Positions 3,876 to 58,891 of a DNA stretch of 64,000 bases are shown in pieces. The DNA is from Branchiostoma floridae (Eukaryota; Chordata; Leptocardii; Amphioxiformes; Branchiostomatidae). Below the pieces are notes generated by a model. That model was not told the origin of the DNA and made no database searches. It saw nothing but the letters and a program-made list of their open reading frames with translations. The stretch's first letter is position 1; each line of letters opens with the position of its first letter. Position numbers and translations under genes: made by a program. Location: contig NC_049988.1 in assembly GCF_000003815.2 (NCBI RefSeq), positions 14,705,734 through 14,769,733 on the forward strand, written 5' to 3'.

Positions 3876-3975
3876 NNNNNNNNNNNNNNNNNNNNNNNNN
3901 NNNNNNNNNNNNNNNNNNNNNNNNNNNNNNNNNNNNNNNNNNNNNNNNNNNNNNNNNNNNNNNNNNNNNNNNNNN
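3876..3975. other. Assembly gap (100 N)
   Basis: Exactly 100 N, the usual placeholder for a gap of unknown length. It abuts the zinc-finger fragment at 3976, so that gene is cut by the gap. Confidence 0.98.
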
Positions 3976-22910: not shown

Positions 22911-23559
22911 NNNNNNNNNNNNNNNNNNNNNNNNNNNNNNNNNNNNNNNNNNNNNNNNNNNNNNNNNNNNNNNNNNNNNNNNNNNNNNNNNNNNNNNNNN
23001 NNNNNNNNNNNNNNNNNNNNNNNNNNNNNNNNNNNNNNNNNNNNNNNNNNNNNNNNNNNNNNNNNNNNNNNNNNNNNNNNNNNNNNNNNNNNNNNNNNNN
23101 NNNNNNNNNNNNNNNNNNNNNNNNNNNNNNNNNNNNNNNNNNNNNNNNNNNNNNNNNNNNNNNNNNNNNNNNNNNNNNNNNNNNNNNNNNNNNNNNNNNN
23201 NNNNNNNNNNNNNNNNNNNNNNNNNNNNNNNNNNNNNNNNNNNNNNNNNNNNNNNNNNNNNNNNNNNNNNNNNNNNNNNNNNNNNNNNNNNNNNNNNNNN
23301 NNNNNNNNNNNNNNNNNNNNNNNNNNNNNNNNNNNNNNNNNNNNNNNNNNNNNNNNNNNNNNNNNNNNNNNNNNNNNNNNNNNNNNNNNNNNNNNNNNNN
23401 NNNNNNNNNNNNNNNNNNNNNNNNNNNNNNNNNNNNNNNNNNNNNNNNNNNNNNNNNNNNNNNNNNNNNNNNNNNNNNNNNNNNNNNNNNNNNNNNNNNN
23501 NNNNNNNNNNNNNNNNNNNNNNNNNNNNNNNNNNNNNNNNNNNNNNNNNNNNNNNNNNN
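22911..23559. other. Assembly gap (649 N)
   Basis: Unsequenced. Open frames drawn across it have no meaning. The size is probably an estimate from read pairs. Confidence 0.98.
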
Positions 23560-24414: not shown

Positions 24415-24582
24415 NNNNNNNNNNNNNNNNNNNNNNNNNNNNNNNNNNNNNNNNNNNNNNNNNNNNNNNNNNNNNNNNNNNNNNNNNNNNNNNNNNNNNN
24501 NNNNNNNNNNNNNNNNNNNNNNNNNNNNNNNNNNNNNNNNNNNNNNNNNNNNNNNNNNNNNNNNNNNNNNNNNNNNNNNNNN
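24415..24582. other. Assembly gap (168 N)
   Basis: Unsequenced; interrupts the repeat upstream of the receptor gene. Confidence 0.98.
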
Positions 24583-50384: not shown

Positions 50385-53300
50385 CGTGGCGGGAAAATCT
50401 CACTGGTAGAAAACTGCGAAGTACGGAGACGCTGACGAGCGTGTAGTCCGTACGGAGTTCAGTGTCGCACTGTTGTTCCGTTACCAGGACGCTAGATGGC
50501 GCTTTGTGACGCAATAATGTTCTGGAACGCCTTTTATGACCGTCCCTTATTTGTACATTCGAGGAACAACAAAGGGATTTTTTCTTTCTTTTTGTGGTCA
50601 TTTTGACGTGATTTTGATTGTAATCCATCTTTACTTTATAACATGCATTGGCATAATACCGGTAGTAAGACTTATACCGGTAGATTAAAAATACTGGAAC
50701 TTAAAGAGATCTACACATGCAACAATGGTTATTTCTGAGCTGTGCACACTTCAGACATCTAGGTGTCCAATACATCATTTACAAAGCATCGATAACAATG
50801 CATTCGAAGACAACAAGGCCAAAAGTTTTCAGTATCTTTTTCGAGGTAGGCAGCTCGTCGTGGGACGAACACACCGTCACATTCATTGCCAAATTTATAG
50901 ATCATAATTACACATGCTCACGGCACAAGACGAACATGATTAAACAACAATCTTGAATTTCTGTTGGTGACCTACAACTCGTGTAAAAGTGTGAAGAACC
51001 GTTGCATAATAGCCCGGATCTATGACTGAATGGGCAAAATTGAACGTACGCATGCCATTTTCCCGCCATTTTTATGTCTACGCTAGCAGTGAAGTGTTAC
51101 TTCATAGCGGTTGTGACGGACAGGAGTTAAATGAAAATTCTTGACAGTATACGTCCGTTTTCTCATGACATTTTGTATGCTCATGCAGGTTTATGTTTTA
51201 TGCATTTACGAACAGAAAAGGAAGGAACATCAGGGGATGTATAAAGGTACATAACGTCAGTTAATTGTGCCGTGTTTCTTCCTACCGGTATTTTTACCCC
51301 CTCCCAACCACGCGCGCCCGTTCGCCGTGTAATTCCGCGGCGTGTTACAATTACAATATTACGCTTTTAGCAGGACAAGAGTGGCAGAAAAGTTACATAG
51401 AAGAAGTGGCAAGGGTAACCTATAACAGCAACATGTAACTGGAGAAAATGATGCGTTGACAATTTGTCAAATCAGTATGGCTAGAGAAATCGTCGTAAAC
51501 GTACCGGTATTATGATAATAGATGTTACGTCACAACTACATGTTTATACAACACCACAGTTGTCCTAAAAAGTCCTTGGTGCTGAAGTCGTCATCAGCCA
51601 AATAGTCCCTAAGAATAAGACGCAAATCAGAGGTTGTCTCTATAGTTTAGGCTCTAGATTTTCTGGCTATCGCTTTAGCAACGTATAATCTTTTATAATT
51701 CTCCAAATGCTTGTTGTTCGTAGCGTTTTATGGTGTCGGAGATTTGATCGTGCGGCGAACACTTCCTGGTATTAGTGCGCGCGATAGCGGTAAAGCGTTT
51801 CGTCGCCTGATTACCCAGATCGTGCGTTCTGGGTGTTTTAGCGCCATCGGAGCCCGCAGAAAACGCATCTGATATTTTTTCTTCCTTTTCACTCAGTATA
51901 CAGAAGAAGTCTTGACCTTTATTGCCATATTAGTCATTATCCCAGGAAAACTCATTTTTACCGTTTAGCAGCCTGTAAAAAATGGCCCCAAATTAGCAAT
52001 TTTGGGGTAAAAAGCTTATATTTTTTATGGTTTTTACCAAAAATAACATTTCTACAGAAAATGTCAAATGAGTCTGTCGGTCAGCAACAAGGCACCCTTT
52101 CCTATCGGAAACATTGAATTGTCCGAAAAACGATGTTTTGAGAAGCGCTAGTGCTTTTCTCAGAGACAGTCAAATTGGCCCCGAATCGTAAAAAAAATCT
52201 CCGAACCAAGACATTTAACAACTTACTCAATTATCATTTTCTCTCAAACCGTCAAAAGTATCAAAATCTTTTTAGTAATGTGACATTAAATGAGGCCAAA
52301 TTTCGAATACTTGTTAGTAGAATTTTATGAGAGACTAAGAATACATACGTTTTGTTGCATAGCGCTTAAGTTAAACGCTAGTCAAACCTATATTCAACGA
52401 GGTTTTTACCTTTGAGAGCACAACGAACAAAGGAGACAACAAAAAGACAAGCTAACAAGTTCTCTCTGTTATACATAAGTGCACTTTGCCGTCTGTGCTT
52501 TATTAACTTGAGTATTACAGTTAAAAGGTGCATTCATAACTTTAAATTTGAACAAATATCTGACTTACAAGCAACCAATCATTTCAATATTACACATATC
52601 ATCTAATGATTGCATCAATGACAATGGCAAAGTATATGATTTACAAGTATGATAATAATAAGATAACATTGGAGGAAATTTCTGTAATATTTCTGAATTG
52701 TCTCTTAACACAATCTATAGTGCAAACGTGTACATGAATTTGAGAAAAAATGCAGTTTTATATCCAAACGAAAATGCTGATCAGTTCTAATCTTCTCCAT
52801 CAAAATCTACAAGTATTATCATATTTCAAAAGGCAAAGCATACAAGATACAATGCGGATATACATGTATGATACAGATTCTGTAATATACAAATGACATG
52901 GAAGATCCAGAACCTACATAAAATGTGGACTTATTTTAGGTTACAAATTCGTGGCACGTCGTACTATGAGGACAAACTGAACTGAACTGAACAAGTGCAT
53001 AAAAAGCTTTCTATACTTCAGCCAGATAGAAGGCTTAAACGTTATGTCATCTAAAGCTAAGTAACAGATCACGATTTCCAAACATCCAATAAATTCCATA
53101 TAATAATCATGTGCAATTGCTGACTTCTGCACTAGACCAAAATGAGGTTCTCCCTGACTAGACCATTTTGAAAGTAATTAAGATGGGGGTGGTCAGGACA
53201 TTTTTCTCCTTCACTCATACTGCATTGTACTGAACAATTTTGACTATGCCTTAGATTCATAATGAATATTTTTCTCTGAATGCCACCTTCAACCTTTAAA

Positions 53301-53818
53301 GAAAATATCAATTTTTCTTGTGCAATTTAGAATGAAAACCTTACAACCTCAGCTAACACTCCCTTTTGGAGTAGAATTCCCCTTAAAATAGCATGAAAAT
53401 GTAATTCTTGTATCTTAACAGTGCCTGGTGAGGGCCTTGTCACATTTGTACAGAGCTATCACCAGCTTTAAATTCTTATGTCCCACTCATTGTTGGGGAG
53501 CCCACTTCATTTATTTTTCTGTCATTTTTAGCTCACAAAAATACATTTTCATCAATTCTATGTCATGAAGTTAAAATATTTGGGACGGACAAATTGCAAT
53601 TTCATTCATGCAAAGAAGCAAATTTCTGTCCAGAGGAACAAGCCCTGGAGACAGCTCTACAACAATAGGTTTATGACAACTAAAATTTTGGATGTTTTGC
53701 AACAGAAAAGGTTGCCATAGTTCCTTTCTGGCATTCAACTCTGTCATAGCCTTTTTGGAGAGCCTAGGATTTAACAGCTGTTTGAAGAATAAGATTTAGA
53801 CCTGAAGGAATGACGGTG
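50385..53818. other. Intergenic with promoter of the FIP-like gene and a dispersed repeat
   Basis: 50385-50650 should hold the minus-strand promoter (GGCGCCATCTAGCG-type and TGACGCAA strings). 51826-52215 is a dispersed repeat. The rest is AT-rich with no convincing frame. A minus-strand AATAAA at 53510-53515 is a candidate end for the long SWEET transcript. Confidence 0.5.
51826..52215 (+). repeat. Dispersed repeat, copy 2
   Basis: Counterpart of 10985-11370: GGGTGTTTTAGCGCCATCGG, TGGCCCCAAATTAGCA, GGTCAGCAACAAGGCACCC and TTGAATTGTCCGAAAAACGA in the same order and orientation. It lacks the 24-bp inverted stem found in copy 1. Confidence 0.6.
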
Positions 53819-53917
53819 CTACGCGTGATTTGCGTTGGCAGCTTTTGGTGTCCGTGGGTAACACACAAGTAGAGCGAGCTGTATCAGTCCCAGTAGAGCA
53901 CCGAGTAGGTTAGGAAC
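53819..53917 (-). other. SWEET alternative last exon, distal
   Basis: Acceptor TTTCTCCAG then VPNLLGALLGLIQLALLVCY, a tail with PRTPKAANANHA and a stop. Starts in phase 0, interchangeable with the proximal exon. Encodes most of TM7 and the cytosolic tail. Confidence 0.85.
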
Positions 53918-56900
53918 CTGGAGAAACAACAACAACATGCAGAGGAGGTAACAGTCACAGGACAAGCTTTTGTTTACTGTAAATGCAGAAATGTTCACGG
54001 TGGATTAATGTTCGCGGTTTTTGCGGCGGCCGCTTCACCGCGAATTTATAGCCACCGCAAACATTTTTCCCTGACAGTAAGAGACTACAGTGCATGGTGC
54101 TACCGCGAAATTAAAACCACAGCGAAAAGTCCATTTTCCTGCTACCGCGAACTTAAATGCATTTACAGTACATAGGAACATGGTGGCATATACAATTCTA
54201 ATTACTACTTCATGCTTAGGAAGCAGAGAGATTTAATATAGATGTTCCACTTGCACATGAAAACTTGAAACGAAATACTAGTAGTACATTATTCTATCTA
54301 AAGATATCTAATAGTATCAACAAGGTCATTATGTGATATTTACGTGATGAGAGGCTTTCTACAGACATTTGTATCTGAGTATGTAGACTATACCAAAAAT
54401 ATATGCTTCATTCTGTTTTACACAAGCACTTGAGAAAAATAGTGCAAGTTTCATATCATATATTCTAAGTTTGAGTTGAAATGGACTTGCCCCTGAATAT
54501 TGATGTCTCTAAATTATCAAATAACTCTACATGACATTAAACTACACTCTCTAGATTTTTGATAAAAATAGAAAGATTTCCTTAACTAGACATACATTTG
54601 GTACAAAATAAAAGTACATTTGTTGACAATGACTGAAGAAAAATCACATGGACTATTGCAAAGATATGACCTTATATTCATACTACAATGAATCTACGAA
54701 TTATTCTATAATTGCACATGGCATTCTTGTGTTCATGTGGAATGTATGAAAGAAGATATTGATATATTAAATGATGTAGACATTCTGTTTTACGTATACA
54801 AAAATAGATCTGTTTTCTGGGTAAGGCACAATTCAGTCAAGTTTGACAATTTTTCTATCTTTGAAACATTTTTTAGGAGAATCATTAAAAGTACATGGCT
54901 CTTAAGACAGTTTGCAAGGTAATATGGTTCCTTATAGTTATACAAACAAAAATCTACAACACTCCAGAAATTTAGCAAAGTCCAAAGAAGGAAAGATATA
55001 GCGTGGAAATATTATTTTGGAATTGTTTTAAAAAACTTTTCTTATTGATATGGATGGAAGAAGCCTTCTAGAGAAGTATACATATGTGGGATGTTGAGAT
55101 GATATGCTGAATAAAAGAAAGGACATCAAAAATTGGGAAGGGCAGATTCTAGAAGGGCAGATTCTACTGTACTTACAGAACAAAAATGTGATCCCTGTAC
55201 ATTTAGCATGCAACATTTCTCATTACATGGCTTACAACAATACAAAGTTTGACACCAAAAAATTGTTTTGACTTTAAGTTTAACATAGTACACCACAATG
55301 CAACAACTGTTAGCAGAAACAAAAAAAAAATAAAGCAACACAAGAAAAATAACAGCTTATTTTGTTTTAGAGAAATAGATGCGGTCGTGGCTGGTCGTGC
55401 TTTTCATAGTTGAGCGATACGCGGCGGTGTCCGTGGGTACAGGAGGTACAGGGGGAGTTGGGAGAAACTCAGTAATGCGCCCAGAAGGCTGGGGATCTGG
55501 AAAGAAGACGGGGCACCCTCACTTGTCAACTCTACTTCTTCCCATGGTTTGGTTATAAGACTTTCAAAAAAATACAAACCTCTTACAAGTTACCATAATA
55601 ACTCAAAGAAAAGGGGAAAGGGTTAAAGTGGACTTTCAACAGGGCAAATGTGAAAAAATTATGTGGAAAGGTAGTTGTTTGTATGACTACCATGATTGTG
55701 CAGTTTTACATATCCAACTGTTTTAACTGCATTTTACAGTTAACATATTCACAGATCCATGTATTAGTATTGCTGCTTCATTGAGATTCAACCATGCTGT
55801 TGTGTGCTGTCCATGTTTGCATGTTGCTGTCAATATGTAGTACTACATGTATATTGCTGCCAAACCAAAGCCACTATTGTATTTTCCTAAGGACAGTTGC
55901 TTGGAGATAATTATGCTGTTGTGTTGTGCTGCTGTCCTATATGACAGTAGCTGTACACGAGTGATGTTGTATTGCTGTCTGATACAGTTGTGTAGAAACA
56001 GACAGCTGTTCTGTTAATGTTCAGTCCAGTGACAGATGTGTACAGGCACCACTTTGTGTTACTACCTAAGCTAATAACAGTTGTATGGTGACTGAGTGTT
56101 CCTGTACATTGGTTAATGACAGCACTTTGTGTTGCTGTCAAAGCTGATGACAGTTGGGTGGTGACTGCGTGTTGCTGTCCATTTTCATGACTGCTGTGTA
56201 ATTTTTGCTGTCTAAAGGATGATTTTGCTCTTTCTAACCCCACTACTCTCAGAACGCTTGTCTATCATCAATTGGGATGAACAGATAGGTACATAAAAAC
56301 ATGATAACATGCATGATGGTCTCAAAACCAGGATAGTAAAACACATACCTGTATGAACAAGTCATTGACCAGTCTGCCATAGATGTACCACTCTGAAGAC
56401 ACCACAAAGTTGGCCACAGATAAGGCAGGAGTCATGGTCTCTGTGCATCTGGTCTTCAGGACTTCAGCCTACAACAATAAAGATAGATATACAGGAATAG
56501 AACTACACATAATTTTGTTGCTAAGCAGGGTTCTTTAAGTATACAAAATTAAGCATCAGTAGTTAACTACAGGGACCGCAAGGACCACTCCAGTGTGGAG
56601 ATGAACGCAACTCGGTTTAATGTACTTCTAACTGGCTTAACAACAAGATGGCGGAGAACATCTGGGACACTTCCCTCATTACCATATTGGTGATACAGTA
56701 GTGGTTCATTAGCATACCGCTGACGTCATAACATTACATAATATATCTGGCGAAGAGGGACTGGTATTGAAACTTTGAACCTTTCAGAATGAAGCTTTTA
56801 TCAACTACTTTTCTGAAAACCTATATAATAGTAGAAGTAGCAAAGACTTAATCCTTTTTGTCAGTAATTGTAAGTATTGCCTGATTCACACTCACTCACT

Positions 56901-58891
56901 CACTCACTCACTCACTCACTCACTCACTCACTCACTCACTCACTCACTCACTCACTCTAGCTCACTCATTCAGGAAGGGCATCTGGCCGTGATACCCCTG
57001 CTTCAAACCCTTTAAGTCAAGATGTTGTTTTTTGCCTGATCTATCTTTTGCAGGTCAGCAATCAGACCCGAACAACATCCTGGAACCTTCGCAAGATGGG
57101 GAACAATGGACATTAAACCGGAGAGTGATTCATTCATTCACACACTCTTTATAAACTGTACAGCTGTAGCCCACTCCTCACCATGGTAGCCAGCGGTGAC
57201 CCGTACATGAGAACAGCACAGCCCGAGGCCATGAGACCCAGGTGGAAGGCTGCCACGGAGTCGTCTGGTGAGAAGAACTTCACATAGATCAGGACGGGAA
57301 ACAACACCGCTCCTCCCGCTAACAGCTGGTTATGGAGGGTGTTCTGGAAACAAGGGAAAATCTTGTTAATCTTTTTCTGACTTTTTACAAGAAAATCTTC
57401 ATCATCAACAATGACTGAACAAGGAAACTATTGAACTCTTTCCTTGGTTTCAAGTAGCAGTTGAATTTTCTCAAAATCACACAAGATACAGCTGATTATA
57501 GAGGGTGTTCTGGAAACAATTTAGCAAAATCCTGTAACTTCTCTGGCATAAAAATCAGGGATTTTGTAACAGCATCATAAACAATGACTTGACAAGGAAA
57601 CTATAGAAATCTTATTTCTTTCTTGGCCTCTAGTAGCACTTGAATTGTCTCAAAATCGCATAAGTTACAAGAGAAAGTAAATTGTGGACAGCAAATAAAG
57701 AAAATTGGTTACTCTATGGTTAATGAATGTCAGACTTTATAATAGTTTGTCCTACCTTTTGTTTAGTGTAGACATAGTAAACCACCAAGTAGCTAGTCTG
57801 TAGGAGAGCTCCTATAGAGTTGACCACCACAAGTGTTTTGTCTTGAACCAAGACTCCATACTTCAGCCAGAATGTGCAGCTGTACAAAAAAAATAGAGGA
57901 AACAAAAGAAAAAAGTACACTTAATTTGGATTTCATATCATTGTCACAGTTGAATATTTACGAGGCAAACTTAATGTGCGTTTTTTTGTTTATCTATCTA
58001 ATTCTTTATCTATTGAGATTCGCGACATAAGTGAAATGACTGGCATATTAAAGCTGACTGCCACCACCCGGAGACTATCATAGAAGCTCATTAGTGTTGG
58101 TAGTACAATGCTAAACTTTCTTCTAACACAAAGGTATATACAGATCAAAGACAGGACGGAAAAGAGTGTAACTGTTAAATTTGATCCACTCACACAGGGA
58201 AGGTCAGTGTAACATTGGGGTTTGCTAAGGATTCAAATCCTGGATCCAGAAGTCAAAGTTATACAACAACGCTTTAAGTACAATACCATAGTAACACCTG
58301 CCACCTTTGTTTGTATACCTTAAGTCACCATCTAACGATCTAGACAGACACTGATGAGGTGCATGTTTGTTCTTAGATCTGGATGTGTTTCCTTTGGTAC
58401 TTACTTGATCAGTGTAGTGAGGAATGGGTAGACTGTGACTCCTGCAGTCGATCCCTGTTGGGTGATCTTTGAAGCAATAACCCTGTAAAAATAATCAACA
58501 AACCACAGGTAAACTCACTTCACAGGTCCTGTGAGAATTTAGTCATGTGCCACTGTAATCTATGTTGCTGTAAATTGCATAAGACTAAGTAAGAGCAAAT
58601 TCTCACTGGAGTCCACCCATGCAAACATGGTTGCTTTTTCTCTTAATCTCTTTAATGCTAACTGTAACGTCATATTCTGTATACAAATAAACTAGAATCC
58701 TACAGCATTGGGCTTTATCAATAATTTGTGGTGCTATTTCTAACGTTTAATATATGAAAATTATGCACAGGTCAGAAAACCTAAAAAATAATTCAGGTTG
58801 AAAATACTTACGATCCTGTGAGAAACTGCCCAACTGTACAGACAGTCGCCAGAAGGGACATCACAGAGACGAGAGAGAGGTCCTCGAACAT
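53819..58891 (-). CDS. SWEET sugar transporter (SLC50A1-like) with alternative last exons
   Basis: A seven-helix facilitative sugar carrier (two MtN3/saliva repeats). Minus-strand exons: 58891-58812, 58482-58405, 57879-57756, 57343-57182, 56468-56349, then either 55496-55404 (218 aa in all) or 53917-53819 (220 aa). Phases are 2, 2, 0, 0, 0, and every border is GT..AG. Diagnostic stretches: VTVYPFLTTLI, WLKYGVLVQDKTLVVVN, NSIGALLQTSYLVVYY, MYGSPLATM, MTPALSVANFVVSSEWYIYG and (I/V)P(S/N)LLGALL. Length fits animal SWEET1 (about 221 aa). Members export or exchange glucose at plasma or Golgi membranes. Family certain; orthology to SLC50A1 likely. Confidence 0.93.
53975..54170. mobile_element. MITE with TACTGTAAATGC termini
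   Basis: TACTGTAAATGC...GCATTTACAGTA are exact inverted ends over 196 bp. The interior repeats TTCGCGGT and ACCGCGAA(T/A)TT. It lies between the two alternative SWEET last exons. Confidence 0.85.
55404..55496 (-). other. SWEET alternative last exon, proximal
   Basis: Acceptor TTCTTTCCAG then IPSLLGALLSFSQLPLYLLY, a tail with PRTPPRIAQL and a stop. Paralogous to 53917-53819: shared (I/V)P(S/N)LLGALL, YPRTP, and similar DNA around CCCACGGACACC. Confidence 0.87.
55800..56215. repeat. Degenerate ~60-bp tandem repeats in a SWEET intron
   Basis: TGCTGTC, GATGACAGTTG and GTGGTGACTG-type phrases recur about seven times at roughly 50-65 bp spacing. Strongly diverged. Confidence 0.55.
56887..56957 (+). 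repeat. (CACT)n microsatellite
   Basis: About 17 perfect ACTC units in a SWEET intron. Confidence 0.95.

Follow-up and report, generated by a model that had tools for sequence, protein, structure and literature searches.

Animals have few SWEET transporters, and the cargo of these proteins in the body is poorly understood. The window analysed here, a 64-kb stretch (64,000 nucleotides) of Branchiostoma floridae DNA, carries on its minus strand a six-exon SLC50/SWEET gene in which five coding exons are common to two forms and the last coding exon appears twice, as 6a and 6b. The locus thereby raises the question of whether a single SWEET gene, the product of which is predicted to mediate facilitated sugar transport, can use exon choice to encode two transporters that differ in the sugar pocket.

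All features of the gene are on the minus strand. Exon 1 (58812..58891) provides the start codon and TM1 and is followed by a GTAAGT donor; exon 2 (58405..58482), exon 3 (57756..57879), exon 4 (57182..57343) and exon 5 (56349..56468, which encodes TM6) complete the common part. Exon 3 contains Asn73 of TM3 and exon 5 contains Trp175, which align to Asn76 and Trp180 of AtSWEET13, respectively. Exon 5 ends in phase 0 at 56349, and the GTATGT donor that follows serves both last exons, each of which can be joined in frame. The last exon 6a (55404..55496) encodes IPSLLGALLSFSQLPLYLLYPRTPPRIAQL and a stop, has Ser191 at the pocket position and is taken as the diverged copy. The last exon 6b (53819..53917) encodes VPNLLGALLGLIQLALLVCYPRTPKAANANHA and a stop, with Asn191 at that position. 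Each exon has a CAG acceptor, a phase 0 start, a TM7 stretch and its own stop, and the spliced products of 218 (6a) and 220 (6b) amino acids are free of internal stops. TM7 begins with IPS in the 6a form and VPN in the 6b form, and the TM7 core and a YPRTP motif are kept in both. Retranslation and splicing thus reproduce the coordinates, phase, stops and motifs given in a preliminary description of the locus. With a common upstream donor, equal phase and separate stops, 6a and 6b have the anatomy of homologous alternative last exons; they are not internal mutually exclusive exons, as each ends in a stop rather than rejoining a common downstream exon. The separate stops make a common downstream coding exon unnecessary, and a non-coding end common to 6a and 6b is possible.

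Either exon improves the match of the protein to its family. The PF03083 score rises from 123.8 bits for the 188-amino-acid product that lacks a last exon to 146.5 bits with 6a and 150.6 bits with 6b (gains of 22.7 and 26.8 bits), and both whole proteins include two MtN3_slv stretches above the Pfam cut-off of 23.7. The Pfam and PDB alignments predict a seven-helix fold for the spliced proteins. The starts of 6a and 6b are the only places on the minus strand of the window where an AG precedes, in frame, the pattern [VIL]P[NSTAGDH][LMIVF]xG. A crude pyrimidine/CAG score was used to rank the 192 AGs from 56318 to 53000: the 6a acceptor shares first place with one other AG (score 14), the 6b acceptor shares third place with two others (score 13; fifth as listed), and the four constitutive acceptors score 12-14 on the same scale. 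Both exons are presumably spliced in vivo. Given the anatomy and the constraint, the locus is best read as having two alternative last exons that are both used, and this reading is highly probable.

The difference between the two forms that may matter most is at residue 191, which corresponds in phmmer and HMMER alignments to AtSWEET13 Asn196 and OsSWEET2b Asn197. The HMMER alignment likewise equates residue 73, an Asn in both forms, with Asn76 of AtSWEET13. According to a review, AtSWEET13 has ten substrate residues, Asn76 of TM3 and Asn196 of TM7 among them, and in OsSWEET2b the TM3 and TM7 asparagines are named as key (PMC8961523, in part). The pair formed by TM3 and TM7 is thus Asn73/Asn191 in the 6b form and Asn73/Ser191 in the 6a form. 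Of the ten AtSWEET13 pocket positions mapped, the exchange of 6a for 6b alters this one only (Asn196 to Ser); the counterparts of Asn54, Trp58, Asn76, Met145 and Trp180 are identical to AtSWEET13 in both forms, four more are unlike AtSWEET13 whichever exon is used, and the tally of positions identical to AtSWEET13 is six of ten for the 6b form and five of ten for the 6a form. The exchange is therefore predicted to replace a residue of the sugar pocket, a placement of residue 191 that derives solely from alignment to solved SWEETs. The earlier proposal that the two exons swap the face of TM7 is in this way narrowed to one pocket position in ten. No convincing sorting motif is seen by eye in the tail of 6a or 6b, and the Asn196 to Ser replacement is more promising as a functional lead than are the short tails.

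Mutants of other SWEETs indicate what this position may do. Growth on glucose is reduced in AcSWEET10 N196A and AtSWEET8 N199A (PMC10660354, in part), and NcSWEET1 N201A is listed in a review as having lost function (PMC11466781, in part). These asparagines are matched to Asn196 of AtSWEET13 by spacing: Tyr183-Asn196 of AcSWEET10 resembles Tyr184-Asn197 of OsSWEET2b, and Trp185-Asn201 of NcSWEET1 resembles Trp180-Asn196 of AtSWEET13. The AtSWEET8 pair (Tyr185-Asn199) is one residue longer than those of AcSWEET10 and OsSWEET2b, and the Discussion of the pineapple paper (PMC10660354, in part) names an OsSWEET2b 'N190'. The correspondence of the three mutants to Asn196 is likely, not certain. As alanine is not serine, and serine is still able to bond sugar, our guess is that the function of the 6a form would be altered rather than absent.

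An asparagine is the rule at this site in the sequences compared, namely solved structures, bacterial matches and, as the animal sample, the two SWEET genes of this genome. It is present in all seven distinct SWEET/SemiSWEET sequences found in the PDB, and the equivalent site in the other half of the amphioxus protein is also Asn. Among 65 bacterial matches (62 retrieved by a family search of 299 genomes in a single phylum, 58 of which gave matches, and three from the starting genomes), Asn is found in 60 and Ser in five; two of those counted as Asn (L142 and L150) have stops inside the match, read as X, and without them Asn accounts for 58 of 63. One set of 33 matches, 30 of them from the best-scoring end of the list, has Asn throughout, and the 32 weaker ones divide into 27 with Asn and five with Ser. 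Close SemiSWEET loci, nearly all from Bradyrhizobium and not independent of one another, have Asn in 80 of 80 cases. Plasmids searched at the protein level with the TM6-TM7 part give no match.

The five Ser matches (L138, L144, L145, L149 and L152) form one divergent SemiSWEET-like subgroup in which Phe replaces the pocket Trp. Four of the five score under the PF03083 cut-off and one reaches it; L138 and L144 come from one genome, and L144 and L145 do not differ over the part shown. The subgroup perhaps takes another substrate. In these bacteria a second pocket residue is thus changed along with the Asn, whereas the exon swap changes pocket residue 191 alone. Since Ser occurs naturally in five of the 65 matches, it need not mean loss. 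Neither is Asn universal, as the dinoflagellate BmSWEET1 is described as lacking an evident Asn pair (PMC9884229, in part).

These comparisons bear on the strongest of the other explanations, that both exons are used and the proteins are functionally equal, the choice between them being important for the 3' UTR (stability, localisation or timing) rather than for transport. The presence of the TM7 core and of YPRTP in both forms, the tolerance of Ser in one natural bacterial subgroup, and 3' regions that are unlike apart from a 14-base direct repeat between the two exons are all consistent with equal function. Against it, the sole pocket position that changes is the one at which, by the spacing match, alanine mutants of three other SWEETs are reported to be weak or dead. 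Equal function is accordingly viewed as rather unlikely, and a functional exchange in the pocket, as predicted from the alignments, is the best functional reading.

The order of events is suggested by a second SWEET gene of this genome, on contig C2 (L085:8150-9478, minus strand). The one last exon found in this paralog encodes VPNLPGIISSIVRLYLFWRYPGEKLA and a stop, ends in LFWRYPGEKLA, follows a 190-base phase-0 intron in the same phase as 6a and 6b, and has Asn at the pocket site, as does 6b. The last-exon motif (AG followed by [VIL]P[NSTAGDH][LMIVF]xG) has one site on the minus strand of the 9.9-kb L085 sequence, and no second last exon is found there by this motif or among the tblastn matches listed (E up to 100). 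The preliminary description held a single TM7/tail exon to be the usual state in animals, and the paralog agrees with it. Over 21 TM7 positions, 6a and 6b are identical at 12, and the paralog is identical to 6a at eight and to 6b at nine; on these few residues, the greater likeness of 6a to 6b is a hint that the exon was duplicated after the gene had split from its paralog. The same comparison suggests that Ser is the derived state and that the direction of change was Asn to Ser.

The 3' ends of the two forms are relevant to whether 6a acts as a coding exon at all. No AATAAA is present between 6a and 6b, and the only AATAAA/ATTAAA hexamer in this interval is an ATTAAA at 54232..54237, about 1.17 kb after the 6a stop, which is a possible poly(A) signal for 6a. 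Weaker hexamers in the same interval are AGTAAA (53978), TATAAA (54050) and three AATATA. Past 6b, an AATAAA is found at 53510..53515, about 300 bases beyond the stop, and the hexamer scan returns a second at 52499..52504. The alternative polyadenylation put forward in the preliminary description is thus hinted at by the ATTAAA at 54237 and weakened by the lack of AATAAA before 6b. In addition, a donor-like GTAAGT (55171..55176) lies 227 bases past the 6a stop and could join 6a to 6b, making 6b a 3' UTR. A transcript with 6a may end near 54237, may continue across 6b as far as the later sites, or may be spliced from the GTAAGT at 55176 to 6b, with a risk of decay.

The last of these routes underlies a second alternative, in which 6a is a regulatory or 'poison' exon: joined to 6b via the GTAAGT at 55176, its stop would be 227 bases before the junction and would make the mRNA liable to nonsense-mediated decay. 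This donor-like site and the want of an AATAAA for 6a before 6b both fit such a role, but a poison exon requires no conserved TM7, and for 6a the constraint appears at the protein level and the Pfam match improves with the exon. A poison exon is therefore quite improbable.

The constraint is evident from the divergence of the two exons. Their 24-codon cores are identical at 15 of 24 residues and 43 of 72 bases, a likeness reached by none of 20000 residue shuffles, which identifies the exons as homologous. The differences by codon position 1/2/3 are 9/4/16. For these codons the NG86 estimates are dN 0.31 and dS 2.93 (saturated) and the maximum likelihood (ML) estimates dN 0.77 and dS 7.8, and YN00 yields no value; with the YPRTP part removed (19 codons), NG86 gives dN 0.42 with no dS and ML gives dN 1.52 and dS 6.28. 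The comparison uses few residues (21-24), and dS is saturated. Neutral drift was simulated in 20000 runs per distance, and a run qualified when it retained 15 or more residues, had no stop and showed 16 or more third-position differences. With all change placed on one copy, a design that is too strict, no run of 20000 qualifies at any of five distances. In a second design that adds synonymous change on the other copy, 15, 29, 7, 1, 0 and 0 of 20000 runs qualify at 0.3, 0.5, 0.65, 0.8, 1.0 and 1.5 changes per site, respectively. Moderate drift (0.3 per site) retains at least 15 residues and no stop in 0.25 of runs; neutrality is thus unlikely because third-position divergence is high, and not because 15 residues are kept. 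As neutral drift matches the exons in at most 29 of 20000 runs, 6a has probably not been neutral since its birth and, through most of its history, was probably maintained as coding sequence. A recent loss of its use is possible.

Such a loss defines a third alternative, that 6a is a relic, a once-used duplicate that has recently gone out of use and is still open by chance. The loss of the pocket Asn in 6a and the lack of a canonical poly(A) hexamer closely after it accord with a relic; set against these are an intact frame and stop, an acceptor tied as the best of 192 AGs and the low frequency (at most 29 of 20000 runs) with which a copy neutral since duplication arrives at this state. A relic is, like a poison exon, held to be very unlikely. 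An assembly artefact is also unlikely, with no N near the gene (the N runs of the window are at 3876-3975, 22911-23559 and 24415-24582) and 6a and 6b 1.5 kb apart on a single contig, C10, and the stop in each exon rules out a single long coding exon that would run from 6a into 6b. The 241-base stretch that contains 6a matches only itself in the 513-Mb assembly and, therefore, provides no second allele for a haplotig comparison.

The duplication itself looks old. Within the surrounding 2.7 kb, 6a and 6b are alike, at the settings of the repeat finder, only over one exact 14-base direct repeat in the YPRTP part. This identity (53847-53860 and 55426-55439) stands amid heavily changed third positions and may reflect constraint or a small conversion tract.

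Overall, the best explanation, and probably the correct one, is a tandem duplication of the last coding exon with both copies in use and one isoform having an altered pocket. The last coding exon would have been duplicated in tandem, probably after the gene and its paralog split, and both copies retained as alternative last exons that are mutually exclusive. The exon 5 donor would then be joined either to 6a, giving the 218-residue form with the IPS-type TM7, or past 6a to 6b, giving the 220-residue form with the VPN-type TM7, and either choice would complete the second MtN3 repeat. In the 6b form the sugar pocket would have its usual two asparagines, Asn73 and Asn191. As the pocket of the 6a form would combine Asn73 with Ser191, this form is expected to transport with a different affinity or a different substrate preference or, should the protein oligomerise, to serve as a modified subunit. 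Every functional effect of the swap is here a prediction. A bolder version, in which splicing controls a selectivity switch and one SWEET gene yields two transporters through Asn or Ser, the Ser form carrying a different sugar or solute or modulating Asn-form partners within mixed oligomers, is put forward tentatively and is doubtful. The two homologous, interchangeable-looking last exons of the preliminary description are borne out by the sequence and have, in addition, the mark of protein-level constraint.

Among known systems, the protein resembles the SWEET/SLC50 family (PF03083; AtSWEET13, 5xpd; OsSWEET2b, 5ctg) in its two MtN3 repeats, TM3 Asn and, in the 6b form, TM7 Asn, and it shares with AtSWEET13 a Trp at the positions of Trp58 and Trp180. 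Unlike known SWEETs, the gene has a second version of the TM7 exon, in which Ser replaces the TM7 Asn. In SUR2A/SUR2B the choice of last exon presumably changes the C-terminal tail, whereas here the helix that changes is the one aligned to a pocket-lining helix. The same kind of alternative last-exon arrangement is known from SUR2 (ABCC9; PMC6773855, in part). In SLC25A3, the mutually exclusive exons 3A and 3B are chosen in a tissue-specific manner and lie inside the folded domain of a carrier (PMC9727669 and PMC5740500, both in part). The SWEET alternatives are likewise in the folded domain of a transporter but, unlike the internal exons of SLC25A3, are terminal, each with its own stop. While alternative last exons are thus known from SUR2 and internal exclusive exons from SLC25A3, a swap of a SWEET substrate residue by exon choice was not found in the open-licence literature, in which SWEET and splicing terms were paired only narrowly. 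Open-licence papers on amphioxus/Branchiostoma SWEETs and on SLC50A1 splice variants or last exons, taken mostly by title (PMC3281891 in part), describe no alternative TM7 exon with Ser, and none on amphioxus exon duplication concerns SWEETs by title. A survey of human mutually exclusive exons handled terminal-exon candidates apart (PMC5740500, in part); if the present reading is true, terminal exons can carry binding-site variants. A natural Asn to Ser exchange in the pocket, brought about by exon choice in a protein otherwise nearly identical, would be a ready-made test of the role of this position.

The surroundings of the two exons include other repeats. A short inverted-repeat (MITE-like) element (53975..54170, minus strand), with 27-base inverted ends that are 81% complementary, is located 57 bases upstream of 6b. 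Its end pattern has no further copy in the window at three or fewer mismatches, and an effect of the element on exon choice is speculation. Intron 5 contains, at 56047-56183, two 64-base direct repeats that are 81% alike and start 73 bases apart. The next gene seen downstream, on the minus strand from 50384 downwards, has a C2 domain at its start (PF00168, 23.3 bits against a cut-off of 22) and resembles a Rab11-family interacting protein.
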